Assembly (NCBI RefSeq): GCF_019649055.1
Contig: NW_026570358.1
Coordinates: 1 to 64,000 of the forward strand
Source of the DNA: Paramacrobiotus metropolitanus
Lineage: Eukaryota; Tardigrada; Eutardigrada; Parachela; Macrobiotidae
Direction of reading: 5' to 3'
DNA: 64,000 nt
Both the position numbers and the translations under genes were made by a program. The notes under the pieces were generated by a model that was not told where the DNA came from, searched no databases, and saw only the letters and a list, made by a program, of their open reading frames with translations. Shown here piece after piece: positions 32,692 through 53,888 of this stretch; within the stretch, counting starts at the first letter, position 1; each line of letters starts with the position of its first letter.

Positions 32692-33026
32692 GTAACATGG
32701 GAAAAAGCCTAATGCGGCACTGGGCAGATCCAACGCGAGCGAACGAACGCTGATAGGCCGAGATGTGGAAAGGAGGCGTGGCTCCGCCTACATCGAGGCC
32801 GATGATTGGCCGAGACGAAAGGCTGGGCGGAAAGCTGCCTGAGTCGAGGCCGATCTAGCGCTCGACAGCGAGTGCGACTCGGTGTGAGTCAACACACCGG
32901 AAGCGGGACTGTCGCTGGCTGCCTACTCGTAGGCTGCCATAGCGACTGGCCCAACATGCCTCTGGGCGGGAGTCCAAGCCCCTGCGAAGGACCGGCCTCG
33001 TACCGCTCCAGTGCCCGCTCCGCACA

Positions 33027-36000
33027 CGACCCTATTGGGGTCGGTGGCTGCGCCTCGGGGGTGTCCGATGACGAAGGTCTCTCGGTGCCGCGTTCTCCTC
33101 CGGACCCGTGGTGGCGATACAACTCACGGCCGAAATCCGAAGGTCGGTCGGTGGTGTTGTTGGACCGGTGTAGGCATCTGTTGGTCGTATCCGTAACGGC
33201 GAAAAGTAAAAAAAAATAAAGTATTATTCCATCTCTCTCTCTAGTAAAATAACATCACAATTCCTGGTGAGCAGGTTGGTGAAAAGATCGATAAAATTGA
33301 GAACATCATTTCGAGATTAGAAAAAGTAAACTCAAAGTCTTTGGTCCGGGGCTTTTGGTCCGGGTGCTCATTCCGACTAGAGCTGATCCGCTCACGGGGG
33401 CTCCAGTCCACAGGATATCCGGCCATCTAGGTCCGAGGCATCGGTTCTCGGGATACCCAGTGGTACCGGTTCACTTCACCGAGGGTCGGAGGTTCGACCC
33501 TCGAGGGTCAAAGGTTCGACCCTATCAGCTTCGGGTAAAGGGTATGAATCTCCGTTGTCGGGTGTGAAACGGGCGTGAAACACACTTTCCGACCGGGATC
33601 CTCCGGTAAAAGCTTGATTAGAACCATCATAGCCGGGTGAAACAAGTTCGCACTTGCATCCAGCCGAGGTTCATCGGGTAAGGTTAATGGAGAGGCACTG
33701 TCGCAGTCGCGAATACCGTAAGGTACCCTCTCTAGGTGCAGGATAAGACCTATTGGGTCTATTGAGCGGTGGATCCTCCGGGGAAGTCCGGTGATCCGAG
33801 GTTCCATCCGGGCAAAAACCGTAATTTTGTATCCTGTCGCCTATTGGGCAACAAGGACCGGTTAACGCCTGGTCTCCATAGGGTTGAATGGTCGATGGAC
33901 GTGGTTTACACTGCACCGTGCAGTGTAAACCACGTTCTGGTCCGAATGATGATATGGCCTCTGTACGGGAGTCCGACCCTGTATCCGGTTGGCTTTAAGG
34001 TTTTGAAGTCCGATGGTAGCCTCGGTAACCGAGGGTCAGCTCCGGTTGTGAAGTCAGAGTCCAAGCTCAGCCTCGGTTGCTGAGTCTAAGTCCATTGGCA
34101 GCCTCGGTACTCAAGTTAAAGTCCAGGGTGTACCCTCGGCTGCACTGGCAAATGGGTACGGAGTCGTCCCGCTCGGCTGGAAATCCTGAATTCGTCTCCT
34201 GTCACCTATTGGGTAACTCGGAGGGGATGATCGCCGAGGTTCGAAGGGTCCGAGGGTCCGAGCCTGAGGGTCGGAGGTTCAAGCCTCGGTATCCGGGGGT
34301 CCGATGGTCATTCCATCCCGGCAAAACCCTTATTCGCGGTGTAGGTCGCCTATTGGGCAACTCTACCGAGTGTCTTACCGGTAAGGTAAAGTTGCTATCC
34401 GGGGCAGCCTCCGTGTCCGGGGTAGCCTCGGTGGTGAGGTAGTCAGCATCCGCTAAGGCTGGTCCAAAGGCATTCTGCCCGGGCAAAAACCCTTTTTAAT
34501 GTCTCCCGTCACCTATTGGGTAACATGGAGAGGGTCTATGCCTCTGGACAGGGTCCGAACAAGTGTCCGAGGGTCAATCGGCCTCAGTGTCCGGGGGTCC
34601 GAGCCTCGGTAACGAGACTGGCCCAACATGCTCTGGTGGGAGTCCGCTTGATGCTGGGAGATGTCCACCGGGTGACTAGCAAAAATCATGCGAAAGAGGC
34701 TCCTCGGCGGCTATTTAAGACCTAATTGGGTCTAAGCCACGAGGTAGACACTCTAAGTTTTAAGGACGGAGTCCAAGCTGGTCCGTTCCTCGGCTGGTCC
34801 CGTGCTTCCACTTAGGCGGAAACACCCGGGATGCCGGAATATGGGGCTAAAGGCCTATTGGGCCTGTTGGCGTAGTTATGGACGTCCGTGGCCTCCTTCT
34901 GAGCGTGCAGTCGTGCCGGACTCATGAATCCTCTGCCGGGCTGTTATAGCTCTTCAGGGGACTCATGAGTGCCCTAACGTCCTGGTGCATCCTTCCGGTG
35001 ACCACGGTCCGATTCGCGGTGAAATGGTCATGCCGGTCACTCATACCATTACTCCAACACAGCGTTGTGCGTAGGGGTGAGGGCATGAGTGTGCCCTAAT
35101 GTCCCACTTCTTCCGTTCCGTTCCGGGAGTGGAAGGGAGGCCTATTGGGCCTCGATGGGCATCCACGGTGAGGTGGAGATCGTGGTTGATCCGCGCCACT
35201 TGACATGGTAACAGGTCGTGGTTGTACGCGATCTGCGAAGGCTTACATCCTCCGAGGGTCCTTCTGCCGGAGTGAGAAGCCGGGGATGTTGAACGTATCT
35301 CGCTCGACATTCTAGGCTTCTCATTTGTCGTACGACGGATTCCGCCGGAGTTACGCTGCCGAGGCCTATTGGGCACTCACACTGACTTCAAGTGGGGGTC
35401 AGTCAGCTATTACTCCGATTCCCGGGGTGTCCATGGGTCTGTTGGCAAACACGTTGCTGAAGATTGCAGTGGCTTCTTCGGGAACATGTTAGCGGAATCC
35501 TCCTGGATTAGGTTCCGGAAATTAGTCATACGGGTTCACTGACCGAGGGGGTATTTCTTCCGAGGTCGGCGTAATCCGTACTCCATTAAAGGTTCAAGTC
35601 GTGCGGATCGGGTTGTCAGGAGATATGGCTTCCTGTACCACACGGTCCGCATTCGGTTAAGGAATGGGAGCCTATTGGGCTCGGAGGGTTAGAGTTACGG
35701 AACTGTCGGTCCACCGGGTCCTTCTGCCGGCTGGGTGCGAGCAGGAGTACCCGGCAGATCATGCTGGGAACTTCTGTCCGACCTCCTTACGTGCGAAGGG
35801 TCCGATACTGAGGCTGTCACCAGGGCCTTGCTGATATAGGACGTTTTTCGCTGCCTATGTCCACGAGGTCCCGGCTGGTAAGGTTCGAGGGTAAGAGCCT
35901 ATTGGGCTCTACAGTCCAAGTTACGGAACTGATCAGCCGGGAGTCCTCTGTCGGAGGGACCTGAACAGGGACAACTGTGTTGTGCGCAGTTGTGCTTGTC

Positions 36001-36245
36001 CAGTCGCTATTCGTACGATTCGTCCCGGTGTGACGTCCCTTGGTTCACACTTTTTATCCGGGGGTCAGCCTCCAGGATCCTTCTGCCGGAGGGGCTGATC
36101 AACGACGAACAGTGTTTGCACAGTTCGCTGCTAACCGGCCGCTATTTGTGCGTTTTTTCCCGGTGAACTGAGGTTTTTCTTCGGGTTCGACCCTTCTAGT
36201 CAGAGGGTCGGGGGGTTTGGACATCGGGGTATCCCTATTGGGGTC
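33027..36245 (-). repeat. CAATA-loop hairpin array in left terminal repeat
   Basis: Thirteen boxes read CC-TATTG-GG on the plus strand, that is CC-CAATA-GG on the minus strand. Positions: 33027-33043 (arms CGACCC/GGGTCG), 33746-33760 (AGACC/GGTCT), 33835-33853, 34201-34217, 34345-34361, 34508-34524, 34716-34733 (six-base loop), 34851-34865 (AGGCC/GGCCT), 35137-35153 (GAGGCC/GGCCTC), 35363-35373 (short), 35668-35682 (GAGCC/GGCTC), 35894-35910 (AGAGCC/GGCTCT), 36232-36243 (short). The arms differ yet remain complementary. Four sites (33835, 34201, 34345, 34508) have a T-G pair when read on the minus strand (GTTGCC/GGCGAC and GTTACC/GGTGAC), which pairs only in RNA of that sense. Spacing is irregular, about 100-700 bases. 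Confidence 0.8.
33899..33935. repeat. 37-base palindrome in left terminal repeat
   Basis: Perfect 18-base arms around a single central C. The right terminal repeat has the same palindrome with central A at 52481-52517. It is possibly a protein-binding or nicking site; function unknown. Confidence 0.8.
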
Positions 36246-36381
36246 TACTCCCTAAGTCAATGGTGGGTCGGGATTCTACCACGCCCTATGATGTTCCCTT
36301 TTAGCTCCGGGGATAGCAGGTCGGCGGGGTCGCTGATCCAGCTGGAGCCAGCTAACCGTCGGGGGTCGGCTAACCCTTTAG

Positions 36382-36558
36382 TTCGGTTGCATCCCCTCGC
36401 ATCCCCAGGAGGTACTTGAAGAAGCTCAAGTGGCCGAAGATGAAGCACATAAGGACATCCTCGACAGGATCGCTGAAGGACGGGCAGAACCGGTCAAATC
36501 GACCAAACCAACAAAGAAGCCCAAAACACCAAAACCCACCACACCACAAACATAGGGC
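36382..36558 (+). CDS. Short helical/lysine-proline open frame (possible exon)
   Basis: From a CCCCAG that could be a splice acceptor (36403-36408), a frame runs 50 codons to TAG at 36556-36558: EVLEEAQVAEDEAHKDILDR, then IAEGRAEPVKS and a K/P/T-rich tail. Acidic helix followed by basic proline-rich tail matches the style of the large frames downstream, and this is the first sequence inside the left terminal repeat border. It may be the last exon of a gene whose start I cannot see, or a relic of another polyprotein copy. No ATG opens it. Low certainty. Confidence 0.4.
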
Positions 36559-36729
36559 CATAGTTAACCTAGAATAAGTTAGGGCTTAGCTAGGACATAG
36601 TTAAGAATGGACCTTTGGTGTCGGAATGGGACCTCTTCAGTTGTGCATGGAACCTTCAGTTGAACTTATTTGGCCTTATCAGAATGTTAACGAGCCGTAT
36701 CTCCTTTATCCCAATAGCCTCTCATAACG

Positions 36730-39700
36730 ATGTCTGACCGACGACGAGACCCTCCGTCGAGTGGATCGAACAGCAGCCGACGCGACAACCGACGATCTCA
36801 GCCGTTCCCGCACGACCGATCGGGCTCCCGAGCTGAAACGCGTTCGGCCACCCAAACTCCAATCCCACAGGTAACAAATCCGCATGCGAACGTAGCGGCT
36901 GATTCTTTGGCAGGTTTAACGGTCGGGTCACGGATGGTCACTCAACCCCGGACGATCCCCCTCCAGACCTTGCCACCGGGCACTATGCTCGACGACACCG
37001 GACTTTTGGTGAATGTGAGCGCGGCCACCGGTCAGAACGCACCGGCAGTACCGATTGGCCCAATAGGTCAGATCCGCCCGCCACTTGTACCGGGACCATT
37101 CATCCCCGGACCAGTCATACCACCGACGCTACCATACATCCCGATTACGGTAACGAGCATCCAGCCGGCCCCAATAGGGCCGCTGATGACTCAAGCCGGG
37201 ATGAACCCCATGCCGAACCAAATGTTCGCCATGTTCACCCAATGGTGCAACCAGATGGGTATGAACCAGCCACAAGGCGGCGCGGTCAACCCTCTGATGG
37301 GATACCCCATAGTTACTGGACCCATGGGAGCCTCGCAGCAGGCGACCTTACCGGCGGCGCCACGACAGGACGGCACAAATATGCCTCCGGTGGTATTAGC
37401 GACGGCTCGGTCGGAACGTCAACGGACACCATCCCCGTTCACTCGATACTACGAGGATGGAACGAAGGCCTTTTCGGTTCATATGCTGAAAAGACCGAAG
37501 CCTCCGACATCATCGACGGAGGCAGCCTCGGCTCAACCGACAGCCGAACCCTTGATACCCGGACCTTCCACAGCCAGACCTTCGGCAGCCGCAATTACGG
37601 TTGAACCGATCTCGGCCGCATCTTCGGCCGGATCGCGAAGGCAGATCCGACCCTCGGAAGAACTCACACTGGGTCTTATGGAAGCTGAGAGTGAATGGAC
37701 CCTCGTCCAGCGCAAGATAGAAGCTCTCAAGTTGAGCGACCCTAACTTTGCGCAGGAACTGACCCGATTGAACTCGGAAATGAAGGAACTGGAACAATAT
37801 ATCCAGGATACCCGAGCCATACTTAGAGCCCTGAAGTCAACCTCCGAGACTCCAGCTTCGGAGAGAGGGCCAGCCTTAGCAACCGCAACTACGGGGGCTT
37901 CGGCTGGATTGACCAACCCTCCTCCCCACCCTTCGACGGCCGAAGTGCATGCACTGATCGCCCATACCAGAGCCGTAATGGAACAGATGCAGGATCAGAG
38001 GCTGCTCCAGGTCGAAGCATCGGGGAGCAGACCGAGACGGGACATACAGACGTGGACCAATATCTTGACCACGGGAGTCGAAGAACTACGGAAGCTGGTG
38101 GCACAAACTCCTGCCACGGGAGGCCAACTTCAGCAACTCCGAGACCAATACCGGACTTTAGACTCCCAAATGTGGGAGGCTTCTGACTACTACTGGACCC
38201 TAAAGGGCCGACAGTCAACTCCCGGGACTTCAGCCTCGGAGAGAGGGCCAGCCTTAGCAACCGCAACTACGGGGGCTTCGGCCGGGGCGACCAACTCTCC
38301 TCCTCACCCTTCAATAACCGAAGTACACGCATTGCTCGGACAGACCGAAGCTCTTGTGAGAGGGATGAGAGGCCAGATACAGGCCGAAGGACTGGAAAAT
38401 CCGGCATCCGAACGCACGTGGATCAGTTCCCTGACCCTCGGAGTAGAAATACTCCGGAAACTGTTATCGCGAACCCCTCTCACAGAACAACAACTGCAAT
38501 TGATCCACACTCACTATTGGCTCCTGAAGGCCCAGATAGAAGAGGCCCGAGACGAACACCCTCTGGCACCCCCGAGAACGGTGGATAATGTGCCTGGATT
38601 GACGAGCCGAGGGACGGAATGGGGATCAGCCGTCGCAACCACAAGTATGGGGGCTTCGGCTGGTACAACAAGGACCCCGGAAGATAGAGAAGCGAGCCCA
38701 AGCCGGCTACAAGTTTACGCGACCTTGAGGGAGTCGGACGACTTAGCGGTGAGACTTAACCGCGAACATCAGGAAACCTTACCGACCGACCCTCGGTACT
38801 TGGATCAGGAATTGACCATCAACCGTATCATCCATGATTCCTACATGCTCCGACGGTCAACTGAAGTTACTAACTTCACCCCGCAGCAAATCCAGCAGTC
38901 CCGGCAAGCGTTCCGGAACCTGCGTAGGGTCATCGATGACAACCAAAACCTGGCATCACCAACCCCACGTGACGTAGCCAAGTCAGACGCGTTTGTGGCT
39001 ATCCGCAAAACTCGGCAACAAGGACTCGTACTCCTAACGGAACTACGCCGGCGCCGAGACCGATACCCTTTCGACTCGGAACAATGGGCGGAAACTGAGA
39101 AACTTATCATCGAGATCCAGTTGAAGCTCGGAGACATCGAACGCTTCAGCCATGACAGAATTCCAGCAAGTGTCCGTGACAGATGGACCTTGGAGGGTGC
39201 GGTGGCCTACGTCGAACAACAGGTAGCGGCTTTCAACCTAACCAAGGGAGCCGGACCGGAAGGGCAACAACCAAGCCCCGCAACCCGCCAAGCGTATGAC
39301 CGAGCCAGAGACAGAATGGCACTCTGGGAAAGAGTCAACCGAGGGAGGAGGCTCAGCGACAACATCATAATGATGTTGATAAGACGCCGTGATCAGGCCT
39401 ACAGCCTCAACGGACAGGAGGCTGCCCGACGAGTCTCCGACCTTATTACTGAAGTTAACCGGGAAACAGCCGACATCACAGGCCTCGTCTGGGAAGGGCT
39501 CCCAACAGGACCCTGGGAAACCCGCGAGCTCCCGAGACTTCTCTCTTCCATTGAGCGACGTGCCGACAATTACGGCATAGTCCTCTCCGATGACCCAGCA
39601 AACCGGCCCGATGAGGCCGAGGCAAGACTTCGGAGATGGCAACAGATCAGAGAGATCCTGGAACAGGGCCATAAGCTGCGCAAGAACCTTCAACGACAAG

Positions 39701-39849
39701 CAAGCAGCCTATCCGAAGAAGGCCCAGAGGAGACTATGGAGCAGTCCAGGGTGTACAACTACCTTAACAACATCACGCAAAACTTACGTCACGTTGCCAC
39801 GGATCCCAACCACACCAGACGAGACACGGGACTTGGAAGCCTCTCTTAG
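36730..39849 (+). CDS. ORF1: 1039-aa proline-rich and helical-repeat protein
   Basis: Intronless frame starting at the first ATG after the terminal repeat (MSDRRRDPPSSGSNSSRRDN). Residues 1-60 are Arg/Ser-rich, about 90-260 Pro/Ile/Gly/Met-rich (PIGPIGQIRPP, PGPFIPGPVIPP), and the rest mainly helical and charged. About residues 375-620 contain two tandem units of about 125 aa, each beginning SERGPALATATTGASAG, with about 48 identical bases at 37857 and 38237; a third diverged unit follows (TSMGASAGTT). Further helical hairpins continue to the end. No enzymatic motif is visible. The design (Pro-rich linkers plus repeated helical bundles) suggests a scaffold or structural protein. Two CAATA hairpins lie in the Pro-rich part (37056-37070 and 37166-37182). 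The C-terminus overlaps ORF2 in another frame. Confidence 0.8.
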   Translation: MSDRRRDPPSSGSNSSRRDNRRSQPFPHDRSGSRAETRSATQTPIPQVTNPHANVAADSLAGLTVGSRMVTQPRTIPLQTLPPGTMLDDTGLLVNVSAATGQNAPAVPIGPIGQIRPPLVPGPFIPGPVIPPTLPYIPITVTSIQPAPIGPLMTQAGMNPMPNQMFAMFTQWCNQMGMNQPQGGAVNPLMGYPIVTGPMGASQQATLPAAPRQDGTNMPPVVLATARSERQRTPSPFTRYYEDGTKAFSVHMLKRPKPPTSSTEAASAQPTAEPLIPGPSTARPSAAAITVEPISAASSAGSRRQIRPSEELTLGLMEAESEWTLVQRKIEALKLSDPNFAQELTRLNSEMKELEQYIQDTRAILRALKSTSETPASERGPALATATTGASAGLTNPPPHPSTAEVHALIAHTRAVMEQMQDQRLLQVEASGSRPRRDIQTWTNILTTGVEELRKLVAQTPATGGQLQQLRDQYRTLDSQMWEASDYYWTLKGRQSTPGTSASERGPALATATTGASAGATNSPPHPSITEVHALLGQTEALVRGMRGQIQAEGLENPASERTWISSLTLGVEILRKLLSRTPLTEQQLQLIHTHYWLLKAQIEEARDEHPLAPPRTVDNVPGLTSRGTEWGSAVATTSMGASAGTTRTPEDREASPSRLQVYATLRESDDLAVRLNREHQETLPTDPRYLDQELTINRIIHDSYMLRRSTEVTNFTPQQIQQSRQAFRNLRRVIDDNQNLASPTPRDVAKSDAFVAIRKTRQQGLVLLTELRRRRDRYPFDSEQWAETEKLIIEIQLKLGDIERFSHDRIPASVRDRWTLEGAVAYVEQQVAAFNLTKGAGPEGQQPSPATRQAYDRARDRMALWERVNRGRRLSDNIIMMLIRRRDQAYSLNGQEAARRVSDLITEVNRETADITGLVWEGLPTGPWETRELPRLLSSIERRADNYGIVLSDDPANRPDEAEARLRRWQQIREILEQGHKLRKNLQRQASSLSEEGPEETMEQSRVYNYLNNITQNLRHVATDPNHTRRDTGLGSLS

Positions 39850-40243
39850 ATACCTACAGAGGCGTATTGCTGAAGAAGGGGACTTGGATACAGACGAATA
39901 CTCCGAGTATACCCCAACCCACAGTCGGAGCCGTAGCCGTGATGGGGAACCAACAGTGACCCCCGGCCCAGGCTCACACCGAAGCGCATCACCAATGTCA
40001 GAACCTCCGTCACCGATACCCTCACCGGACATCGAGATGCTCGATGACCCACCGGAAATGGACTTCGGTATCACCATAACTACCGAAGAATTGAGGAGGG
40101 ACTTAGCCGAAACTGAGCTAACGGCGGACCTTCTGACCCAGCGGATTGCTACGCTGCAGCCGGGCGATGCGACTCTAAGGACCATCACCGAACAGCGCGA
40201 TATGGCTCGTGGGCATGCAGAAAAACTCCTGAGGAAGTTATAG
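39590..40243 (+). CDS. ORF2: continuation of ORF1 in the next frame
   Basis: Frame open over 217 codons, overlapping ORF1 by 260 bases. Only the part after about 39,810 looks like coding for this frame (RDLEASLRYLQRRIAEEGD, an acidic SRSRSRD region, a PSPIPSPDIEMLDDPPE linker, then the helix ITTEELRRDLAETELTADLL). It therefore reads like the continuation of ORF1 after a one-base shift. It ends with a single TAG (40241-40243), after which the same frame stays open to 45013. Either a programmed shift and readthrough join these pieces, or the gene is damaged. No homologue recognised. Confidence 0.65.
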   Translation: MTQQTGPMRPRQDFGDGNRSERSWNRAISCARTFNDKQAAYPKKAQRRLWSSPGCTTTLTTSRKTYVTLPRIPTTPDETRDLEASLRYLQRRIAEEGDLDTDEYSEYTPTHSRSRSRDGEPTVTPGPGSHRSASPMSEPPSPIPSPDIEMLDDPPEMDFGITITTEELRRDLAETELTADLLTQRIATLQPGDATLRTITEQRDMARGHAEKLLRKL

Positions 40244-43200
40244 GAAAGAAGCCACAAGGAGGCTCAACCTCGGACCTCCGGACCTCAACAGGCTCAACCA
40301 TCGGGGCCTCCTCAACCTCGGACCTCCGGACCTCAACAGGCTCAACCATCGGGGCCTCCTCAACCTCGGAACCCCGGACCCTCGAGGGTCAACCTAACTG
40401 AGCCACCTCAACTCCAACCAGCCCCGACGGAACAGGAGATCCAAACTCTCCGTGATGACATAGCCCTCAATGAAGGCTATGCCCGGGACTTAGCCGCCCA
40501 GGCTAATCAGTTGGAGGATCGGACCCCGGCTCAGAAGAAGCGGATCCGAGACCAGTACGTAATGGCCATGATGGATGTGGAGAGCTTAAAAGCCGACCTA
40601 GAAGTGGCACTTGCAAAAAGGAAGCATGAGGAAGAGAGCCGCAAAACGGTTCCACCTCAGCCCCCGGCCACTCAGCCGACCCAACCTTCGGCAACCCAGG
40701 CAACTCAGCCTCCGGCTACTCCGCCGACCCAAGCCTCCGCGAACCTACCGCAGCAACTGGAACGGCCGGTAGCGACCCAACAGGTTGCACCGACCCGGCG
40801 CCTTTCGCCCCGCTCAATGGTACGGGCGATGGAAAACATACCGGACCCGGGAGTTCTGCCGCCCGACGCTCAACCCTACATAGTTGAAGCCATGACTCGG
40901 GCTAATAATATCTTGACTGAGATGCGGACTCGCCGAGGCTTCTGCGACCGTCATAGCGCAGAATTCTTCAAACTGGATGGTGACATCATCGGAGTTGAGA
41001 ACCACACCAGGGCAACTCGGATACTTCTACACCCGGAAACTCCGAAGCATCAGTACAGCCAGGCTCAGCTACAATCATGCGTGCTTTGGCTCTCGGGCTT
41101 CATCCGGGATTATGAGGAAGAAAAGCAGGCCAAGGAACGGCGAGAGGCAGACCGAGCCTCCAAGGATCAGTCTCGGATTAGGCAGGTCGAACCCCCAGAG
41201 CAGGGTACATCTGACCAATCAACCCGGAGACCGACCATCAAGCCACCCTCGACGGCTACTCCACCGTCAGGAAATTGGCCACTGGCAGTACCCGGAATGG
41301 AGGAAACCATCCGGCGAGCACTTCAGCGAGCCGAGGATGCCAGCCATGAGATGCATGCCCAACTGCATGCTATGAACGCCTGGGACCCTAGGGCGGCAAG
41401 GCTCGACGTTGACACCAATACTTTGGACACGAGCCGGAAGACCATTGCCACCATATTAACCCTATCGGCAGCGAGATCTTCGGACACCGAGGAGACCCTG
41501 ATACAGGCGCTGCAAGACATTAAGCGGATCACCGAGGGTTACTACCGTAACAAGCGACGTGAAGCCGCGGAGCGTAAAGCCCAACAGGCTAAGCCACCCG
41601 CACGACCAGCTACGCCGCCCGGTGAACCTATGGATGTTCCACCCTTAGAAGGTGAAGAAGAGACCCTTGAGCCCTCCACAGCGGAACGGGAAGCTTACGC
41701 TCGGACGCGGGACTTAACCCCGGACCCACCGAGTACAAGCAAGGCACCAAGGCCAACAACACTGCCGGTACCCCCAATAGGTGGTTCGGCTCGGCCAAAA
41801 CGAACGGAACAGGTGCTCGTCATCCGACGCCCGACCGAACAGTCCGATGACCCGGAGAGAACCCCGGATGGTAGGGCTATTCATCAGCCCGGAGGCCCAG
41901 ACTCGCCCAAGTTCGCGAGGAAGCCTCGGTCTAAGGACAGGGATGAGGATAAAGGCCCGAAACGGAAGCTGTTTTCATCACCACCGAGACAAGTCCGGAC
42001 CCTCGAACAGGTCCGAGAGATTGTGATGCGGGAAACGGCTTCAGACCCATCGAAGCCCCGTCAAAAGGTACGACCGACGCCGGGTGAGAGCCACAAGACG
42101 GCCCCCCAGCCTCAGTTAGCACTACAAGCCATCCAACCGGACTTAACCGCAACGGAACGGGAAGCCCTGGCTTACCACAACCAGCTGGTAGACCAGATTA
42201 AGCAGGCCGAATTCTACCGGGTCATCCAAGAAGGTGAACTTACCGGTGGACAGCTCGAACATAAGATGTCGTCAAGAGATCGGAACCGTATAACCCAGAA
42301 AGTCTTGGATTTTGCGACCGACCGCGACGCTATTATACGAAGACTTATGACCCTCCGGAGCAGCATGCAGGTACTTCGGACACAGAGGTTACCGAGGGTG
42401 GTTTTGGACTATGTCCAGCTGTTACGGAACCCGAGGATTAACCCGGCCGTATACATCCGTGAACCACCCCTGGAGGAAGGCCAGCTTAAAACCGACCCTA
42501 TTCCTGAAATCGACCCCGACAACTCGGGAGGTAGCGACGAGGACCCTAATGTCTACGGCGCGGAGGATAGTGAAGAGGAACGACAGTGGCAACAAGCCCT
42601 GTTAAACGACCTTCGGTCAACATCAAGGCTCTCGACCGAGCCTCGGTCAACTAGTGGACGAAGCAGGTCCCCGGTGAAACAGGTGTCCCCAACTAGGGCT
42701 CTGTCTCAGCCGAACCGGATGCCTAGTATGACCCCTCTCCAGCCTCCACCACCGAGGTTTTCCCCGAAACGGACACCTCGGCAAGCCTCCCAAGAACGGA
42801 TGGACACTTCGTCTCCGGCAAAACTGGAGATAGCGGCAAAAGAGCCGGGCAGCACAGCATCGATGTCAACCTCGGTGCCGGACATAGCCGCCGAAGTGAC
42901 GGTTGAAACTCAGGTACAACCGGCTGTGCAGCCTCAATTAGGGCCCGCGGTTAGTAACCAGACCCACCGTCAGTACCATGACGACCCGGCCATGGACTCC
43001 ATAAAGGACTTGACCATGACCGAAAGGGATGACTGCATCAATAGGGCCGCGAGCGCGGAGCGTAACTATTATAACGCTCTCAAGAGTCGCCGCGATAACC
43101 TGCCCGACAACGACTCCAACGAAACCATCCGTGAGTACCATAACCTGACCCAACGGATGAAAGAGATTGTGCAGCAGATGGGCGATGACTATCGCAAGAA

Positions 43201-45013: not shown

Positions 45014-45380
45014 TGATGACAAGGACGCCAAGTCAGACCAAGACTCTGACAAATCCGACGATTCGGATGGCGACGACGACGATAACGAAGATGGCAAAGG
45101 GCAGCCGCCAACAGCGGCACCCGAACATCCAGAACCGGAGGATGAGCCTGACAATCGGGAACAACCTCCGGCAGATGACCCGGACGATCCGATGGAAGAT
45201 GCGGGATCGACGGTCCCATCCGGACAACAAGCCTCGGGCTTTTTCGACCAAAGGACCCCGAGCCCTCCGGCCGACCAGCTACTTATGAAGTGGCATGAAG
45301 ACACAGCGCAAGTCCTGCCTCGGGAGATCCCATCGAAGCCCATCATTCGGCTTCCCGGCCAAAACAGCCGGCAACCATGC
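44990..45380 (+). CDS. Acidic linker segment between ORF3 and ORF4
   Basis: Part of an open frame (44832-45509) whose useful stretch begins where ORF3 stops: SSEDDDDKDAKSDQDSDKSD, then more Asp/Glu, a Pro/Glu linker, and DQLLMKWHEDTAQVLPREIP. This runs straight into the sense of ORF4, which is again one base out of phase near 45,380. The acidic tract follows the basic tail of ORF3, as in chromatin or nucleic-acid-binding proteins. Two opposite one-base shifts about 370 bases apart fit paired indels or assembly errors better than two programmed shifts. Confidence 0.6.
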
Positions 45381-46123
45381 GGGCATCCAGACCGAAGCCT
45401 CGGATCTCCGACACCGACCCTGGATGGGTGCATGTTCACGCTGCACTCAAGTCGCTGTCATGGTCGGGCCCAACCTACGCAACCCCGGAGTTGGCTTACC
45501 AGCTGCTGAAGCATTGGCGCGTCGACAAGGACGGAAGCTGGTTTGACCTTAGCCTCGACAGAGTGAAGATCTACTGTCGGATGGCATACGAGACTGGTGC
45601 CATCCTTCGGGTATATACCAAAACGGAACGACCGTACTACGTCTTTCCGAGGGAAGAACAAGACCCAGCGCCGAAGACTTACCTCGGATGGCGGGACGCA
45701 GTGATCGCCTGCCTGCGGACGGATCGACACCCGGAAGGATTAACTCGCCGGGAGATTTTGAACCACCTAATAGGTCGGTTCGAGTTCATACTGATGTCCG
45801 CTTACCCTCAATTGGAAGATGCACGGTACCGACCGGTCCGAAGAAAGGAAACCAACCTGTACTATCTGGCCGATGAGCTGGAGTACGTCTTGGAGCAAGC
45901 CTGCCGACAGAAAGTCCTCGGATCGAGTGAGGTTTACAAGACCCACGGGCAGCGTTTCTCCGTCTTCTACCTACCTGAAGACTTCGGACAGCACCTGCCG
46001 AAGACGCGGGCAAGCTCGGCGAGCCCACCGAAGGCTCCCACCTCGGCCGAAACGGAAGCCCAGAAGCGGTTGGCACGGGCCAAGTCAACTAACCCGGCTG
46101 ACCTGCCGAAGAAGCAAAGCTAA
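45377..46123 (+). CDS. ORF4: 248-codon protein with two winged-helix-like units
   Basis: Same frame as ORF2 and ORF3. Two segments share a pattern: HAALKSLSWSGPTYATPELA to RPYYVFP, and GWRDAVIACLRTDRHPEGLT to FSVFYLP. Each has three predicted helices and then a strand pair ending in an aromatic-rich YYVFP or FYLP, like winged-helix/H1 domains; a related unit lies in the last part of ORF3. I infer DNA or chromatin binding. The C-terminal 45 residues are disordered and basic and end at TAA 46121-46123. The first ATG in frame may not be the true start, since the sequence continues from the acidic segment. Confidence 0.7.
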   Translation: MRASRPKPRISDTDPGWVHVHAALKSLSWSGPTYATPELAYQLLKHWRVDKDGSWFDLSLDRVKIYCRMAYETGAILRVYTKTERPYYVFPREEQDPAPKTYLGWRDAVIACLRTDRHPEGLTRREILNHLIGRFEFILMSAYPQLEDARYRPVRRKETNLYYLADELEYVLEQACRQKVLGSSEVYKTHGQRFSVFYLPEDFGQHLPKTRASSASPPKAPTSAETEAQKRLARAKSTNPADLPKKQS

Positions 46124-46363
46124 ACGGAAGTACATCATCGGAGGTTCCTTGCCCAATAGGCGAGACCCTATAACCTCCGTAACGGGGATGTTTCTCTTGC
46201 CCAATAGGCGAGAAGGGAAAGGATCGGACAAGACCTGACCGTACCCGACCGTTTAAGCTTACATCTAACCATAGAACGTTTAACCCAATAGGTTTACGTA
46301 ATGACCCAAAAGGTTTAAAACAAAAATAACTTAACAATATTAAGTTAAGTGTTTTGACCATAG
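46124..46363 (+). other. Spacer with three CAATA hairpins
   Basis: AT-richer spacer between ORF4 and ORF5. It contains CTTGCC-CAATA-GGCGAG (46148-46164), TCTTGCC-CAATA-GGCGAGA (46195-46213) and AACC-CAATA-GGTT (46282-46294). TTCTCAG just after it (46366-46372) could be a splice acceptor, cis or trans, for ORF5. Confidence 0.55.
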
Positions 46364-48691
46364 CCTTCTCAGCCCCGAACGGAAGCCTACGACCCGGATT
46401 GCCAGGCGTGCAAGGCCAATAACAACTCTCCTCGGACACGCCAACCCTGCGCGGAATGCCTGTTACGACACTTGGACAGACAAGCCGGGGATCACAGAGT
46501 CACACGACGGGACCAGGCCAATGCCCTGTACGTCCAGGTCGTCACCGGGAACTTGAGTGCCTACATGCACGCCGTCCATAACAGCCGCATCCTTGATGAG
46601 TTGGACGGTCGACAACTGCTCTACATGTGGGACATGCAGCGCTACCGCAGACGTACCCACGAGCCCGGCTGGGATAACACCCCAGCAGTCCCGGACAACG
46701 CCCGATTGGTCCATGCCCGTGAACAACGACGGGAGCAGGAACGCGAGGATGACCGCCGAGAAATAGAGGCAGCCGACCGACGGATCGCTAAGGCCCAGCG
46801 TGAGCACGAAAAACGGACACGCCCGAAGGAGAACAAGAATCCCATCTTAGGCGTAGCCGGCGACTTACAGGCTAGGCTCATGGCGGAACCCAAAAGGTTC
46901 CCGGATGAGCCCTCAGCACCTCTTAATATGGACGTGCTGAATCCGGATCGGACCCTAAAAACGTCCAGCCTCCAGGATGCGTTCCAGGTCGGCCCCGCCC
47001 CACTTACCGGGTTGACGGTAACACTCATCGGACCTGACGGCCGACAATATATGGCTCAAATCCTTGACCCCCAACAAACGGAGGCTCTGCCGGCAATTCA
47101 GCGGAGCCAGGTAGAACAGCAGCTGGTAGCCCCACAAGAAGGTGGCTCACCCCAGCAAATGGACAGCGCACCTTCGCAGCCCCCGGCCCAACCAGCGGTT
47201 CGATCGGCAGAACCACCAGCGACGGCAGCAGTGACCCCAACAGGGTCCACTCCGTCTAACCGCAGAACCCAGAGTGTGTCGGACTTGGCACCAGGTGACC
47301 TGCGTCATAGGCTGGGAAGGGACCTACGACACAAGCTGGAGGCTCAACATAGGCCCGCGACTACGCGACAACCAGATGAACAGCCTTCGAAGGATCGGAC
47401 CCGACCCTCCCCCGGCAAGCGATCCGGTTCGGAGGATACCGGGCTCGTCGTGGACTCCAATAGCAAGTCCCGGCGTAACTTCACTCAGCCTGTGGCCCGA
47501 CACCAGACGGCTCGACACCCAGCCCTGCGACCACCCCCACCTTTGGAGCAGCTGGACCAGCTGCTAGTGCAACAGCGTCCATTACCAGATCCGGAACCGG
47601 TAGTGCCTAGCCAGCATGACCCTCGGTACGACCAGGCGCGCCGACAGGGTATTGCAGTGGAAATACCACACCCGACGGAACGGACGAACTATATCATGGG
47701 CACTATGCAGTACCGGGAGGATCGACGAAACCAAATCTGGCACCTGGTCAATGACCTTCGGATCTTCCTCGACCATTCCGGATACCAACAGATGTTCGAA
47801 CATCGGCAATGGTCCGAGGACTTCGAGATGAATGATCGGCTGTCCTATGGCATCGGGTTCCCATACTACCGGACGAACGGTTTGCCTAGCACAACCGACC
47901 CAGCGACTTTGGGATTGCCACTTGACCACCTGGATTGGTCTCAACTGAGCCAGCTCCCGTTGTTCTCTTCGGAACGGGAGATCACGGACCATACGGAATG
48001 GGTGGCGCAGTTCGTACTCACCGAGGCACAAGCAGCCATGGTGATCACTGCAGCCAGAGCGGCCCAGGGCTTGCCTGAATACCTTGGCAACATCGAACCT
48101 GAAGCCCGGGGAGATGCTCCGTTGGCCTTCCAAACAGCTTTGCGACTGATCTTCGCGGCCCGACTCGGCCACCATCACAGCCACAACACCCTGTATTGCG
48201 CGTACCGGAATAACAACATTCCACCCCGACTTCGAACGGCGGTGGCTCAACTGAGCGCGCCGATGCGAGACACAGTGGTGGGATTATGGCTGCGTGACTT
48301 CTTGCTGACGGCAGAGCGATGGTACAAGGAATACCAGTACCATCCGGACGAAGAAAAGGATGTCGATGAAGCCTCGACCCTCTCGGAATGGTGCCGGACC
48401 CATCGCCACTTGCCACCCGGGTTCACATCACCACCGATGCCCGAGGGCAAGTCATCCTACCGGTATAACATGTGGCCAGGTTCATCATCTTCGGGCAGGA
48501 ATCGCCGAAGACGCGAAGCCCGCCGAACCAAAGCTGAAAAGCCTGGACAGGAAGCCTCGGAATCGCAGTCAACCTGTACCCAGGAGGCTACATCCTCGAA
48601 CCACCCAGGCCGACGGGAACGGGATAAGGACGACGACTCGGAAGGCTCCCACTTCGGTGGTGGAGCCCCGGTCAACGTGGACTTGGAATAA
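46364..48691 (+). CDS. ORF5: about 775-codon protein with CxxC-CxxC motif
   Basis: The first ATG in frame comes late, near 46562, but the frame is open from 46364 and its start encodes CQACKANNNSPRTRQPCAEC, a CxxC-x12-CxxC zinc-ribbon-like motif, so translation probably starts in an upstream exon or at a non-ATG codon. Next comes a helical segment (ANALYVQVVTGNLSAYMHAV), a coiled-coil-like Arg/Glu helix near 46,700-46,820, and a Pro/Gln-rich disordered middle. A folded C-terminal half (about 47,640-48,440) contains aromatic-rich stretches such as RLSYGIGFPYYRTNG and AALRLIFAARLGHHHSHNT-like sequence. The basic tail ends at TAA 48689-48691. No known domain recognised; not a transposase by eye. 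Confidence 0.75.
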   Translation, partial: PSQPRTEAYDPDCQACKANNNSPRTRQPCAECLLRHLDRQAGDHRVTRRDQANALYVQVVTGNLSAYMHAVHNSRILDELDGRQLLYMWDMQRYRRRTHEPGWDNTPAVPDNARLVHAREQRREQEREDDRREIEAADRRIAKAQREHEKRTRPKENKNPILGVAGDLQARLMAEPKRFPDEPSAPLNMDVLNPDRTLKTSSLQDAFQVGPAPLTGLTVTLIGPDGRQYMAQILDPQQTEALPAIQRSQVEQQLVAPQEGGSPQQMDSAPSQPPAQPAVRSAEPPATAAVTPTGSTPSNRRTQSVSDLAPGDLRHRLGRDLRHKLEAQHRPATTRQPDEQPSKDRTRPSPGKRSGSEDTGLVVDSNSKSRRNFTQPVARHQTARHPALRPPPPLEQLDQLLVQQRPLPDPEPVVPSQHDPRYDQARRQGIAVEIPHPTERTNYIMGTMQYREDRRNQIWHLVNDLRIFLDHSGYQQMFEHRQWSEDFEMNDRLSYGIGFPYYRTNGLPSTTDPATLGLPLDHLDWSQLSQLPLFSSEREITDHTEWVAQFVLTEAQAAMVITAARAAQGLPEYLGNIEPEARGDAPLAFQTALRLIFAARLGHHHSHNTLYCAYRNNNIPPRLRTAVAQLSAPMRDTVVGLWLRDFLLTAERWYKEYQYHPDEEKDVDEASTLSEWCRTHRHLPPGFTSPPMPEGKSSYRYNMWPGSSSSGRNRRRREARRTKAEKPGQEASESQSTCTQEATSSNHPGRRERDKDDDSEGSHFGGGAPVNVDLE

Positions 48692-50023
48692 AAGAGACCG
48701 GTAGCTGGACCCCAATAGGGTTAGGCTAACCGTGAAACCGGTCGAACGGACATGACGACGTCTCCAATAGAGACGTATCCCATAGATGGAACCCAGCCTG
48801 TGGAGCCACAGATCGTTGGCCAACCATCTTACAGTTCGTTAAACCACATTTGCTACCAGGCCGCACCCTCAATAAGGGATACGGTCCAAGGGCAGTGCAG
48901 ATCGCATTAACCACGATTAGCTACCTAAACCGGACCCTCAACAAGGGATACGACGGTAGATTTGACCCTGTACTACGTCCAAATGGCCCGGAGCATACCT
49001 TTCACCGAGCCAACCCTCATCACCCCGCAGATTACAGCCTTAACCATAACCTTATCCTCCTGCAGATCGCAGTCTTAACCACATCTGCTACCATTAAGAA
49101 GTTACAGAGTCAGCCACAAGTATGGCTGTCCGTGGTGATCTCAGCGAGGAAGGCAACCTGCGGACCGCATCTAACCACGACTGACTAACCTGTCTTTCGA
49201 TCCGAGCAGATTGCTCGATACCTCACCGGACCCTAAAGGCTCCGGGGTATGAGGCCCAATAGGCCTCCATCTGCGAAAGGATCCAGACTTCGGCATCATA
49301 TAGGAACTTCCGTTCCTATATCTTACATAGCTCCAATCCATTACTGAACAACGGCAGCGGAAGCAGAATGCGAACCGTCTTCCATCCGAGCAGATTGCTC
49401 GATACCTCACCGGACCCTAAAGGCTCCGGGGTATGAGGCCCAATAGGCCTCCACCTGCGGACGAACATTCTAAAGTTCCGTCCCTCCGACGCGGGAAGCG
49501 ATATCACCTACATCGCAGGAACGGAAATACCTCGGATCGAAAGACAGAGTCCGAAGAAGTGAACCCGACCGGACTTAACCTCATGAAAGGCTCGACCACT
49601 ACCTTGTGAACCCAATAGGTTCCAGGGAAGGTGCCCAATAGGCCGCCAGAAGTTAGCGGAGCCTGATCCCCCGCCGACGACCGAGGCAGAAACTCCGACC
49701 TCGTCGTCAATAGAGGAAGACCGAACCGGCAACCCTCGGACTACCGTAGTTCTGGAAGAGAAGCCTCCTAAACCACGTTAGTCCGGACCTTCGCACGAAA
49801 GGCGGTTTCTCCGCGCAGATCAGCATGACCTGCTGTTCTGCACGGATAATCCACTCCGGCAGAAGACTCCGGAATCGAACATCGGATGGATCCCTCGGAT
49901 AGACCCGATAAGTACGAGTTCAACTTGAACCGTACCGGACGTCTCCCCAGGTTTCCCCTGGATGAACCGGACGGAATGTTCCGGTCTCCGGCGACAATGA
50001 CAGGAGGCGAACCGAGCCAAATA
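48692..50023 (+). other. Noncoding 3' region of the element's gene block
   Basis: 1.3 kb without a credible frame, between ORF5 and the right terminal repeat. It holds six stem-perfect CAATA-type hairpins with different arms plus one CAACA variant, and a structured module present twice (49200-49276 and 49384-49460). It is probably a 3' untranslated or noncoding RNA region of the element. Confidence 0.6.
49200..49460 (+). repeat. Duplicated 75-base structured module
   Basis: Two copies 184 bases apart. Each folds on paper into CGAGCA-GAT-TGCTCG, then ATACC(TCA)CCGGA paired with TCCGGGGTAT around a ten-base loop, then GAGGCC-CAATA-GGCCTC. Three adjacent stems preserved in both copies suggest a functional RNA structure. 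Confidence 0.65.
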
Positions 50024-51489
50024 GCGAGGGGATGCAACCGAACTAAAGGGTTAGCCGACCCCCGACGGTTAGCTGGCTCCAGCTGGATCAGCGACTCCGC
50101 CGACCTGCTATCCCCGGAGCTAAAAGGGAACATCATAGGGCGTGGTAGAATCCCGACCCACCATTGACTTAGGGAGTAGACCCCAATAGGGATACCCCGA
50201 TGTCCGACCCTCCGACCCTCTGATTGGAAAGGTCGAACCCGAAGAAAACCTCAGTTCACCGGGATACATCGCACGAATAGCGGCTGGTTAGCGGCGAACT
50301 GTGCAAACACCGTTCGTCGTTGATCAGCCCCTCCGGCAGAAGGATCCTGGAGGCTGACCCCCGGATAAAAGTGTGAACCAAGGGACGTCACACCGGGACG
50401 AATCGTACGAATAGCGACTGGACAAGCACAACTGCGCACAACACAGTTGTCCCTGTTCAGGTCCCTCCGACAGAGGACTCCCGGCTGATCAGTTCCGTAA
50501 CTTGGACTGTAGAGCCCAATAGGCTCTTACCCTCGAACCCTACTAGCCGGGACCTCGCGGACATAGGCAGCGAAAACGTCCTATATCAGCAAGGCCCTGG
50601 TGACAGCCTCGTCATCGGACCCTTCGCACGTAAGGAGGTCGGACAGAAGTTCCCAGCATGATCTGCCGGGTACTCCTGCTCGCACCCAGCCGGCAGAAGG
50701 ACCCGGTGGACCGACAGTTCCATAACTCTAACCCTCCGAGCCCAATAGGCTCCCATTCCTTAACCGAATGCGGACCGTGTGGTACAGGAAGCCATATCTC
50801 CTGACAACCCGATCCGCACGACTTGAACCTTTAATGGAGTACGGATTACGCCGACCTAGGAAGAAATACACCCTCGGTCAGCGAACCCGTATGACTAATT
50901 TCCGGAACCTAATCCAGGAGGATTCCGCTAACATGTTCCCGAAGAAGCCACTGCAATCTTCAGCAACGTGTTTGCCAACAGACCCATGGACACCCCGGGA
51001 ATCGGAGTAATAGCTGACTGACCTCCACTTGAAGTCAGCACGAGAGCCCAATAGGCCTCGGCAGCATAACTCCGGCGGAATCCGTCGTACGAAAAGCGAC
51101 GGGACGGTGCTGCGCGGCGCGATCCGCTTCACCCACCGGCCTGTCCCTCCGGCAGAAGGACCCTCGGAGGATGTAAGCCTTCGCAGATCGCGTACAACCA
51201 CGACCTGTTACCATGTCAAGTGGCGCAGATCAACCACGATCTCTACCTTACTGTGGATGCCCATCGAGGCCCAATAGGCCTCCCTTCCACCCCCGGAACG
51301 GAACGGAAGAAGTGGGACATTAGGGCACACTCATGCCTCACCCCTACGCACAACGCTGTGTTGGAGTAATGGTATGAGTGACCGGCATGACCATTTCACC
51401 GTGAATCGGACCGTGGTCACCGGAAGGATGTACCAGGACGTTAGGGCACTCATGAGTCCCCTGAAGAGCTATAACAGCCCGGCAGAGGA
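49856..51489 (+). repeat. CCGGCAGAAGG box array
   Basis: A second recurring box, CCGGCAGAAGG(A), lies at 49856, 50333, 50690 and 51149, with variants at 50467 (CCGACAGAGGA) and 51479 (CCGGCAGAGGA), interleaved with CAATA hairpins. All but the first are mirrored in the left terminal repeat near 34,936, 35,268, 35,716, 35,952 and 36,077. Possibly a binding site; function unknown. Confidence 0.6.
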
Positions 51490-53888
51490 TTCATGAGTCC
51501 GGCACGACTGCACGCTCAGAAGGAGGCCACGGACGTCCATAACTACGCCAACAGGCCCACAGGCCTTTAGCCCCATATTCCGGCATCCCGGGTGTTTCCG
51601 CCTAAGTGGAAGCACGGGACCAGCCGAGGAACGGACCAGCTTGGACTCCGTCTTTAAAACTTAGAGTGTCTACCTCGTGGCTTAGACCCAATTAGGTCTT
51701 ATATAGCCGCCGAGGAGCCTCTTTTGCATGATTTTTGCTAGTCACCCGGTGGACATCTCCAGCATCAAGCGGACTCCCACCAGAGCATGTTGGGCCAGTC
51801 TCGTTACCGAGGCTCGGACCCCCGGACACTGAGGCCGATTGACCCTCGGACACTTGTTCGGACCCTGTCCAGAGGCATAGACCCTCTCCATGTTACCCAA
51901 TAGGTGACGGGAGACATTAAAAAGGGTTTTTGCCCGGGCAGAATGCCTTTGGACCAGCCTTAGCGGATGCTGACTACCTCACCACCGAGGCTACCCCGGA
52001 CACGGAGGCTGCCTCGGGCAGCAACTTTACCTTACCGGTAAGACCCTCGGTAGAGTTGCCCAATAGGCGACCTACACCGCGAATAAGGGTTTTGCCGAGA
52101 TGAAACGACCATCAGACCTTCGGATACCGAGGCTTGAACCTCCGACCCTCGGGCTCGGACCCTCGGACCCTTCGAACCTCGGCGATCATCCTCTCCGAGT
52201 TACCCAATAGGTGACAGGAGACGAATTCAGGATTTTCAGCCGAGCGGAACATCTCCGTATCCATTTGCCAGTGCAGCCGAGGGTACAACCCGGACTCTAA
52301 CTTGAGTACCGAGGCTGCCAATGGACTTAGACTCAGCAACCGAGGCTGAGCTTGGACTCTGATTTTGCAACCGGAGCTGACCCTCGGTTACCGAGGCTAC
52401 CATCGGACTTCAAAACCTTGAAGCCAACCGGATACAGGGTCGGACTCCCGTACAGAGGCCATATCATCATGCGGACCAGAACGTGGTTTACACTGCACAG
52501 TGCAGTGTAAACCACGTCCATCGACCATTCAACCCTATGGAGACCAGGCATTAACCGGTCCTTGTTGCCCAATAGGCGACGGGACATAAAATAACGGTTT
52601 TTGCCCGGGTTAAACCTCGGATCACCGGACTTCCCCGGAGGATCCACTGATCAATAGACCCAATAGGTCTTATTCTGCACCCAGAGAGGGTACCTTACGG
52701 TATTCGCGGAAGCGACAGTGCCTCTCCATTAACCTTACCCGATGAACCTCGGCTGGATGCAAGTGCGAACTTGTTTCACCCGGCTATGATGGTTCCAATC
52801 AAGCTTTTACCGGAGGATCCCGGTCGGAAAGTGTGTTTCACGCCCGTTTCACACCCGACAATGGAGATCCATACCCTTACCCGAAGTTGATAGGGTCGAA
52901 TCTTTGACCCTCGAGGGTCGAACCTCCGACCCTCGGTGAAGTGAACCGGTACCCCTGGGTATCCCGAGAACCGATGCCTCGGACCTAGATGGCCGGATAT
53001 CCTGTGGACTGGAGCCCCCGTGAGCGGATCAGCTCTAGTCGGAATGAGCACCCGGACCAAAAGCCCCGGACCAAAGACTTTGAGTTTACTTTTTCTAATC
53101 TCGAAATGATGTTCTCAATTTTATCGATCTTTTCACCAACCTGCTCACCAGGAATTGTGATGTTATTTTTACTAGAGAGAGAGAGAAATGGAATAATACT
53201 TTATTTTTTTTTACTTTTTCGCCGTTACGGACACGACCAACAGATGCCTACACCGGTCCAACAACACCACCGACCGACCTTCGGATTTCGGCCGTGAGTT
53301 GTATCGCCACCACGGGTCCGGAGGAGAACGCGGCACCGAGAGACCTTCGTCATCGGACACCCCCGAGGCGCAGCCACCGACCCCAATAGGGTCGTGTGCG
53401 GAGCGGGCACTGGAGCGGTACGAGGCCGGTCCTTCGCAGGGGCTCGGACTCCCGCCCAGAGGCATGTTGGGCCAGTCGCTATGGCAGCCTACGAGTAGGC
53501 AGCCAGCGACAGTCCCGCTTCCGGTGTGCTGACTCACACCGAGTCGCACTCGCTGTCGAGCGCTAGATCGGCCTCGACTCAGGCAGCTTTCCGCCCAGCC
53601 TTTCGTCTCGGCCAATCATCGGCCTCGATGTAGGCGGAGCCACGCCTCCTTTCCACATCTCGGCCTATCAGCGTTCGTTCGCTCGTGTTGGATCTGCCCA
53701 GTGCCGCATTAGGCTTTTTCCCATGTTATGGCTCGATGTGCCGTTCATTTTCATTCACTAGCTGACATTCGGTGATTTCTACTCTACAGCTCACATCGAG
53801 CCTTTGTGTTTGGGTTTTCTGTACTTTATTGCTATCACAATAAAGCCTTCTCTCACTATCGTGAGCCTTTGTTCGCCTGCTGTCACAA
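50024..53888 (-). repeat. Right inverted terminal repeat
   Basis: Inverted copy of 32533-36400. The CAATA hairpins are retained at 50181-50191 (short), 50511-50527, 50738-50752, 51046-51056 (short), 51266-51282, 51684-51699, 51893-51909, 52055-52071, 52199-52215, 52563-52581, 52656-52670 and 53378-53394. The copy near 51553 has lost its loop (CACA), a difference from the left arm. Confidence 0.92.
52481..52517. repeat. 37-base palindrome in right terminal repeat
   Basis: Perfect 18-base arms around a central A, matching 33899-33935, where the centre is C. Confidence 0.8.

Follow-up and report, generated by a model that had tools for sequence, protein, structure and literature searches.

Dispersed packaging signals have been described in MS2, in picornaviruses and in the pregenomic RNA of hepatitis B virus (PMC6281560), and giant Gypsy-like long terminal repeat (LTR) elements are known as Burro in planarians and Ogre in plants (PMC6431247). 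Here we describe repeated hairpins with a CAATA loop in a giant LTR element of the tardigrade Paramacrobiotus metropolitanus. The element lies in a 64,000-nucleotide stretch (the window), positions 1 to 64,000 of the forward strand of contig NW_026570358.1, which is C138 of a genome of 169.8 Mb in 533 contigs. Like the viral signals, as far as they are set out in the parts of PMC6281560 consulted, these are many dispersed stem-loops with a shared motif in a genomic RNA, here judged by sequence. Unlike them, they belong to a Ty3/Gypsy LTR element, have a very strict loop, a 6-bp stem and a loop that varies between families, and they are candidate sites only. The tardigrade element shares with Burro and Ogre, from the main text of PMC6431247, a Ty3/Gypsy-type core, extra open reading frames (ORFs) and a total length of about 16-30 kb or more; unlike theirs, its accessory ORFs lack a Pfam match and its 3′ end is studded with hairpins.

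Two other systems bear on the comparison. The single CCHC knuckle of Ty3 Gag is required for packaging of genomic RNA (PMC4974528, PMC11381356), and the Gag of the tardigrade elements likewise has a single CCHC knuckle; repeated constant-loop hairpins, in contrast, are not mentioned for Ty3 in the available parts of these two papers. Cer1 is an LTR element with an extra protein, CERV, that acts on its genomic RNA, and the tardigrade element resembles it in having extra proteins but differs in its repeated hairpins, none of which are described for Cer1 in the portion of PMC10309623 consulted. The main text of the giant-element review PMC6431247 does not contain the word tardigrade, and the uses of hairpins shown there concern Helitrons; the main text of PMC11071193 does not name Paramacrobiotus. 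In titles and abstract beginnings of the open-licence literature, a search that most subscription papers fall outside, we found neither repeated constant-loop hairpins in LTR elements nor giant tardigrade Gypsy elements. Dispersed packaging signals and giant Gypsy elements are thus known, and such hairpins in an LTR element appear to be new as far as searched.

CAATA hairpins in the window

Exact arms of at least 4 bp around CAATA were tallied on both strands of the whole window, giving 14 on the + strand and 6 on the - strand. All six minus-strand sites fell inside the inverted left arm of the element (32534-36400), and the right arm has a CAATA counterpart for five of them. Outside the element, no CAATA hairpin with a stem of at least 4 was found on either strand of the 64-kb window. 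Since the minus-strand sites were mostly copies of right-arm sites, a single arm was counted, and the counting region for the coding strand was 36401-53888 (+). When wobble and one mismatch were allowed, 20 of the 38 CAATA in this region had at least five of six flanking pairs, compared to 5 of 42 CAACA, 4 of 22 CAAAA and 355 of 17331 other positions (2.0%). With exact stems of at least 5 bp, there were 11 CAATA hairpins, whereas 200 dinucleotide shuffles averaged 0.005 and never exceeded 1; in the same shuffles the best loop, whatever its sequence, reached at most 3. At 104 host CAATA, pairing was no more than 0.12 above the column expectation at any position. A blind pentamer scan of the window ORF region gave a value that 5 of 100 shuffles equalled or exceeded, so CAATA was not singled out there by the scan alone.

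The hairpins were densest after the last accessory ORF, ORF4 (48692-53464), where 15 with at least 5/6 pairs gave 3.1 per kb; ORF1, ORF2 and ORF4 had 0.8-1.0 per kb and ORF3 none. Rfam 15 returned two matches at E up to 1 over 32000-54500, both far under the gathering score. The hairpins with a CAATA loop were as follows.

37052..37074, +: TTGGCC-CAATA-GGTCAG, two wobbles, in ORF1
37163..37185, +: CGGCCC-CAATA-GGGCCG, in ORF1
46145..46167, +: CTTGCC-CAATA-GGCGAG, one wobble
46193..46215, +: CTTGCC-CAATA-GGCGAG, one wobble
46277..46299, +: AACC-CAATA-GGTT, 5/6 pairs
46326..46348, +: TAACTTAA-CAATA-TTAAGTTA, 8-bp stem
48704..48726, +: GACCC-CAATA-GGGTT, one wobble
48756..48778, +: ACGTCTC-CAATA-GAGACGT, 7-bp stem; the equivalent in locus L039 is CGGCCC/GGGCCG
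48861..48883, +: CCCT-CAATA-AGGG
49248..49270, +: GAGGCC-CAATA-GGCCTC
49432..49454, +: GAGGCC-CAATA-GGCCTC, local duplicate of 49248..49270
49604..49626, +: GAACC-CAATA-GGTTC
50508..50530, +: AGAGCC-CAATA-GGCTCT
50734..50756, +: GAGCC-CAATA-GGCTC
51263..51285, +: GAGGCC-CAATA-GGCCTC
51889..51911, +: GTTACC-CAATA-GGTGAC, wobble, predicted outer stem
52052..52074, +: GTTGCC-CAATA-GGCGAC, wobble, predicted outer stem
52196..52218, +: GTTACC-CAATA-GGTGAC; GTTACC/GGTAAC or GTCACC/GGTGAC in other copies
52561..52583, +: GTTGCC-CAATA-GGCGAC; GTTACC/GGTGAC in 4 other copies
52652..52674, +: AGACC-CAATA-GGTCT; AAGGCC/GGCCTT in 2 other copies
53375..53397, +: CGACCC-CAATA-GGGTCG, about 70 bp upstream of the LTR; 23 bases identical in 39 of 44 mapped copies
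33024..33046, -: left-arm mirror of the 53375 hairpin, one of 12 covariance-model matches on the - strand (33024-36249)

Kissing-loop dimers were considered and rejected: CAATA cannot pair with itself, and the coding strand of 36401-53888 has only 5 TATTG to its 38 CAATA.

Covariation of the stem

Covariation was measured on all 25 CCAATAG sites of 36401-53888, which were picked by loop and closing pair only. Permutation of the mutual information gave p values of 0.011, 0.00005, 0.00005, 0.00015 and 0.005 at stem positions 2, 3, 4, 5 and 6, and of 0.45, 0.49 and 0.64 at positions 7, 8 and 9 beyond the stem. Dropping three sites with copied flanks left 22 sites with a similar outcome (position 6, p 0.036), and pairing in this smaller set had p of at most 0.009 at positions 2-6. 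Across the 25 sites, 85.3% of cells were paired compared to 61.0 ± 3.0 in shuffled sets, 46 cells were changed on both sides compared to 16.9 ± 3.3, and the covariation score was 0.604 compared to 0.191 ± 0.039; in each case 0 of 500 shuffled sets were as high. Two measures were unexceptional, namely the number of pairs with a change on both sides (43/500) and the number of further pair types (189/500).

A dot matrix of 67 nonredundant hairpins, picked at 5/6 pairs or more, showed a strong diagonal solely at positions 1-6, so the stem is 6 bp. The hairpin has a CAAHA loop on this stem. A strict outer stem with a bulge beyond 6 bp was rejected, as the 67 hairpins had merely a diffuse excess past position 6, although an outer stem was predicted for some folded segments. 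Only 2 of the 25 window hairpins had a Watson-Crick pair at position 7, as if longer stems were avoided. When ten segments were folded locally, four had z values of -2.04, -3.65, -3.48 and -3.47 and the other six lay between -0.25 and -1.63; with z of -2 or below in only 4 of 10, the hairpins could not have been picked out by folding energy alone. Three of the folded segments, with z of about -3.5, belong to a copied group at 51880-52600, in which the hairpins are predicted to be part of a longer fold that has an A-rich internal loop and an outer stem.

The original prediction, made by a model from the letters alone, had proposed about 25 distinct sites, a fair count given the 25 CCAATAG sites and the 20 CAATA with at least 5/6 pairs. 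All nine arm types that it listed occur as CAATA hairpins, AGGCC/GGCCT only in the left arm (34856). Its constant core needs amending: the hairpins are real, but the loop is CAAHA rather than CAATA alone, on a stem of 6 bp. Its central claim, of a selected hairpin rather than a copied sequence, agrees with the permutation p values of at most 0.011 at positions 2-6, with the covariation score and with the low rate of change described below (lower than in 500 of 500 random sets). The shuffle comparison that it proposed came out on its side.

Reach and conservation across copies

The window element and its copies in the same genome are here called family 1. CAANA hairpins with exact stems of at least 4 bp numbered 4 to 22 in each of L031, L032, L034, L036-L039 and L043-L047, on the coding strand throughout. 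Three were found in L035, and the mostly host-like L033 had one in its element part and two outside it on the other strand. The hairpins extended to a gag-pol piece (5 in 10 kb) and to a 5′ piece of 2.3 kb (4). A covariance model was built from the 25 window sites, which match by construction, and 20 sources were searched, namely the window and 19 of 51 loci (211069 bases; L001-L030, L033 and L035 were left out). Its 244 matches at E up to 1 were confined to the coding strand of the window element and of family-1 loci. There was no match in L040-L042 of a second family, in the host locus L050, in L051 of a third family or in the window outside 33024-53397.

Between copies, the 15 hairpins after ORF4 had a substitution rate of 2.5% per position compared to 8.4% in random windows, and 0 of 500 random sets were as low. 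The stem changed at 2.8% and the flanks at 10.7%, with 11-21% at the first position beyond the stem. Within the loop, positions 1, 2, 3 and 5 changed at 1% or less and position 4 at 6.7%. Set against their surroundings, the hairpins vary little from copy to copy. At site 52570 a double change kept the pairing across copies (GTTGCC/GGCGAC and GTTACC/GGTGAC), and at site 52205 pairing was kept via wobble.

The CAATA hairpins are almost certainly under selection. The opposite view, that they arose by chance or by copying of a GC-rich repeat with a CCCAATAGG core, is scarcely credible. It can point to two groups of local copies, 49257/49441 and 51898/52061/52205/52570. These are the main exceptions among flanks that are otherwise unrelated (27% mean identity over 406 pairs), and both the shuffles and the persistence of covariation in the 22-site set speak against it. 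With unrelated flanks, covariation at stem positions 2-6 and low substitution in the hairpins, the copied-sequence reading was rejected.

At stem positions 3-4, G-U pairs outnumbered A-C pairs by 40 to 6 in 161 distinct family-1 hairpins and by 13 to 1 in 57 nonredundant ones. This preference at the inner stem favours the coding-strand RNA as the selected form, and RNA is very probably what selection acts on. Sites at the DNA level, either cruciforms or dyad protein sites in chromatin or complementary DNA, are quite improbable in comparison. Palindromic stems could extrude in DNA too, and the wobble preference is absent from family 2 and confined to two positions in family 1. Against this, the matches to the family-1 model carry the loop only on the coding strand, G-U is tolerated over A-C at positions 3-4, and the arms of a dyad site read in the duplex would not vary freely.

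The carrier is a giant Ty3/Gypsy-type element

The carrier of the hairpins is a giant Ty3/Gypsy-type LTR element of Paramacrobiotus metropolitanus, and the window copy is rearranged. Its parts, and that of a neighbouring element, were as follows.

32534..36400, -: left arm, inverted copy of LTR and 3′ untranslated region (3′ UTR), an apparent terminal inverted repeat (self-BLAST, 96.6% identity to the right arm)
32534..32956, -: LTR, 423 bp, TG...CA, inverted (LTR match)
36730..39849, +: accessory ORF1, 1039 aa, no Pfam match
40244..45013, +: accessory ORF2, 1500 aa from 40511 (1589 aa stop to stop), no Pfam match for the 1500-aa form
45299..46123, +: accessory ORF3, 274 aa stop to stop (scanned from 45377), no Pfam match
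46364..48691, +: accessory ORF4, 739 aa from 46472 (775 aa stop to stop), Pfam matches only sub-threshold
48692..53464, +: stretch of about 4.8 kb after ORF4, here named 3′ UTR
53465..53887, +: LTR, 423 bp, TG...CA
62626..64000, -: 3′ LTR and adjoining 3′ end of a family-2 Ty3/Gypsy element (L040-L042), which extends to about C138:92600

The inverted ends are 3868 bp long and 96.6% identical by self-BLAST, and each begins with the 423-bp LTR. When 40 of 154 candidate places were scored for the LTR, all 40 matched. Among these 40 places, seven same-strand LTR pairs on six contigs were spaced by 23.0-33.2 kb, and an eighth, on C325, by 9.0 kb. Full copies have directly oriented LTRs (TG...CA) at both ends, whereas the window copy has them inverted. 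The one full copy checked, C68:238877-268296, is flanked by a 4-bp target-site duplication, ATAC. The window copy has no target-site duplication and a short CATCCCC repeat at its inner junction, and so seems to consist of two 3′ ends brought together by rearrangement.

The window copy lacks gag-pol. In the family-1 piece L043, a Gag-like ORF was found together with protease, the C-terminal part of RVT_1 and RNase H by Pfam in overlapping frames; the family-1 integrase was seen only as tblastn similarity, in L038 and L039. The Gag pattern CX2CX4HX4C was present in L042, L043 and L051, one from each of three families. The original prediction had taken the carrier for a DNA transposon. This was rejected, as the inverted ends are LTR plus 3′ UTR, the window copy has no target-site duplication, no transposase was recognised in the six window ORFs scanned, and the relatives have direct LTRs, a 4-bp duplication in the copy checked, protease, reverse transcriptase, RNase H and integrase. 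With an LTR retroelement as carrier, the analogy to packaging or coat-protein sites on an RNA genome becomes more natural than the prediction had supposed.

None of the accessory ORFs scanned was above the Pfam cut-off, and the scan of six window ORFs yielded no recognisable RNA-binding domain. In protein-database searches that scored the best ~8000 candidates each, ORF4 had one homologue and Gag two, all from Paramacrobiotus metropolitanus, and residues 1040-1500 of ORF2 had none. ORF4 is 36% identical to a predicted protein of this species. Two Gag-like ORFs scanned gave no Pfam Gag match, and Gag had no match among solved structures at E up to 1. The stretch of family 2 equivalent to ORF3 shares a frame with the end of ORF2, as judged by eye. 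In neither of the two family-1 copies compared was the 3′ LTR directly preceded by a purine run, and the primer-binding-site region after the 5′ LTR was not matched to a tRNA. The two copies have an identical GC-rich stretch upstream of the 3′ LTR (53425-53476; C68:239302 region).

Several side observations were made on the element and its surroundings. ORF1 has internal repeats at 37835-38346 (134 bp, 84%), and a 48-bp tandem repeat lies at the start of ORF2 (40263-40380). An ORF that looks coiled-coil-like by eye and is some 900 aa long or more precedes gag in both families, at L042:5905-8592 and L043:7188-9998; we know of no such ORF in ordinary Ty3/Gypsy elements. Tandemly repeated genes, which from their motifs we take to be M13 neprilysins, occupy 19743-32513 and 54539-57530, and one left of the element is seemingly cut at the element edge.

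Related families have other loops

The family-2 element is about 30 kb long, is coded on the - strand and lies about 8.7 kb from the window element. One of its ORFs carries RVT_1 (53-205), RT_RNaseH (296-397), Integrase_H2C2 (598-655) and rve (678-769) by Pfam; upstream of it are an ORF with a Pfam protease and a Gag-like ORF. Its accessory ORFs are related to those of the window, with 36% identity for ORF4. In RNase H and integrase, family 2 shares 66% identity with a piece of L043, 62% with L039 and 61% with L038, where identity falls to 42-46%. Family 3 is represented by L051, which resembles the gag and protease of family 2 (70-77% DNA identity); RNase H and integrase downstream on C42, presumed to be of the same copy, are 82% identical to family 2. 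L050 was rejected as the 3′ end of a family-3 copy, having no similarity to the elements and a host-like GC content.

The pentamer scan scores pairing at stem positions 2-6 for every loop. CAATA came out on top in the pieces tried from family 1 (z 4.1-11.0, with 10.7 for the 3′ UTR), ACAAA or ACACA in each family-2 piece (z 5.1-7.4) and ACGGA in the sole family-3 piece (z 5.2). Shuffles reached the scan value in 0 of 200 for the 3′ UTR, 0 of 100 for L042, 0 of 200 for L051 and 2 of 60 for 16 kb of host DNA. In family 2, positions 1-5 paired beyond permutation (p 0.0002, the floor) and positions 6-9 weakly or not, and 62 ACANA places with at least 5/6 pairs were spread over the element. In L051, ACGGA occurred 22 times on the coding strand and twice on the other, and three sites had a perfect 6-bp stem around AACGGAA.

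There are host proteins that recognise a loop on a stem of free sequence, and a host RNA-binding protein might read these hairpins, be it for germline localisation, for control of translation or in a silencing pathway, which the element might exploit or be subject to. Position 4 of the loop tolerates change, much as in a loop read by a protein. The related families, however, have different loops in the same host, and the window outside the element is free of CAATA hairpins with stems of at least 4, which makes a host reader improbable. The use of other loops by related elements in the same animal instead suggests that the reader belongs to the element, and it is likely to be element-encoded.

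A candidate role in packaging of element RNA

A strict loop on a free stem, repeated in one orientation, resembles an RNA hairpin read by a protein, and we infer that a protein reads the loop. In the mechanism that we propose, 6-bp stems of free sequence with a CAAHA loop would form in genomic-sense RNA, with loop and pairing kept and the stem sequence free. The hairpins would act jointly as multivalent, family-specific sites for the element's own protein. Gag, with its single zinc knuckle, might bind weakly to many sites along an RNA of roughly 23-33 kb and might so single out its own RNA from that of rival elements for condensing and packaging. Gag is the first choice because it must select the element RNA and has CX2CX4HX4C in all three families. 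That the CAATA hairpins are such sites, serving to package or condense element RNA, seems about evenly poised between true and false, and the same even balance applies to Gag as the reader and packaging as the step.

Several observations weigh against this proposal or against its generality. Covariation at homologous sites of family-1 copies was weak: the pair was kept after 24 of 53 one-sided changes (4477/11661 in control column pairs, 41/134 in chance hairpins) and after 4 of 6 two-sided changes (531/1407 and 6/16, respectively). At stem positions 1, 2, 5 and 6 there was no excess of G-U over A-C, with 23 against 24 in the 161 distinct hairpins and 7 against 13 in the 57 nonredundant ones, and many of the T-G pairs at position 4 stem from arms of the GTT.CC/GG.GAC type. 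Family 2 lacked a G-U preference (12 against 21 A-C in 56 hairpins). Family 3 consists of 22 sites in one 4.2-kb piece and was strong only at stem position 5 (p 0.0002), with about 0.03 at positions 2 and 4 and no significance at the rest. Retroviral nucleocapsid knuckles favour an exposed G, and the loops CAATA, ACAAA and ACACA have none. The densest cluster lies in the 3′ UTR and would also be on any spliced accessory mRNA, and so would not on its own mark full-length RNA.

The main rival follows from the same distribution. An accessory protein (ORF1-ORF4) could read the hairpins for nuclear export, stability or translation, in the manner of Rev and its response element RRE or of CERV in Cer1. 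The density peak in the 3′ UTR is common to every 3′-coterminal mRNA, accessory ORFs with no assigned function adjoin the hairpins, and export of Cer1 genomic RNA requires the extra protein CERV, according to the part of PMC10309623 consulted. The hairpins also occur in gag-pol and the 5′ region, though, and the 62 family-2 places are element-wide, which seems beyond the need of an export element; nor was an RNA-binding domain recognised in the window ORFs. We consider this explanation rather unlikely, if less so than a host reader.

A further step can be suggested tentatively, at somewhat less than even likelihood: a code of self-recognition in which the genomic RNA of each family would bear tens of hairpins and the loop of each family (CAAHA, ACANA or ACGGA) would be read only by its own protein, loop and reader diverging together as do phage coat proteins and their operators. 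To our knowledge, the choice of RNA by LTR retroelements is poorly defined outside retroviruses and yeast. The hairpins offer a candidate cis signal that recurs tens of times, is legible in the sequence and differs between families of one genome, so that short RNAs and single domains of proteins would allow a direct test of the recognition code. The signal also bears on the handling of element RNAs some 30 kb long; if the code holds, rival elements of about this size that share a cell would each package their own RNA.

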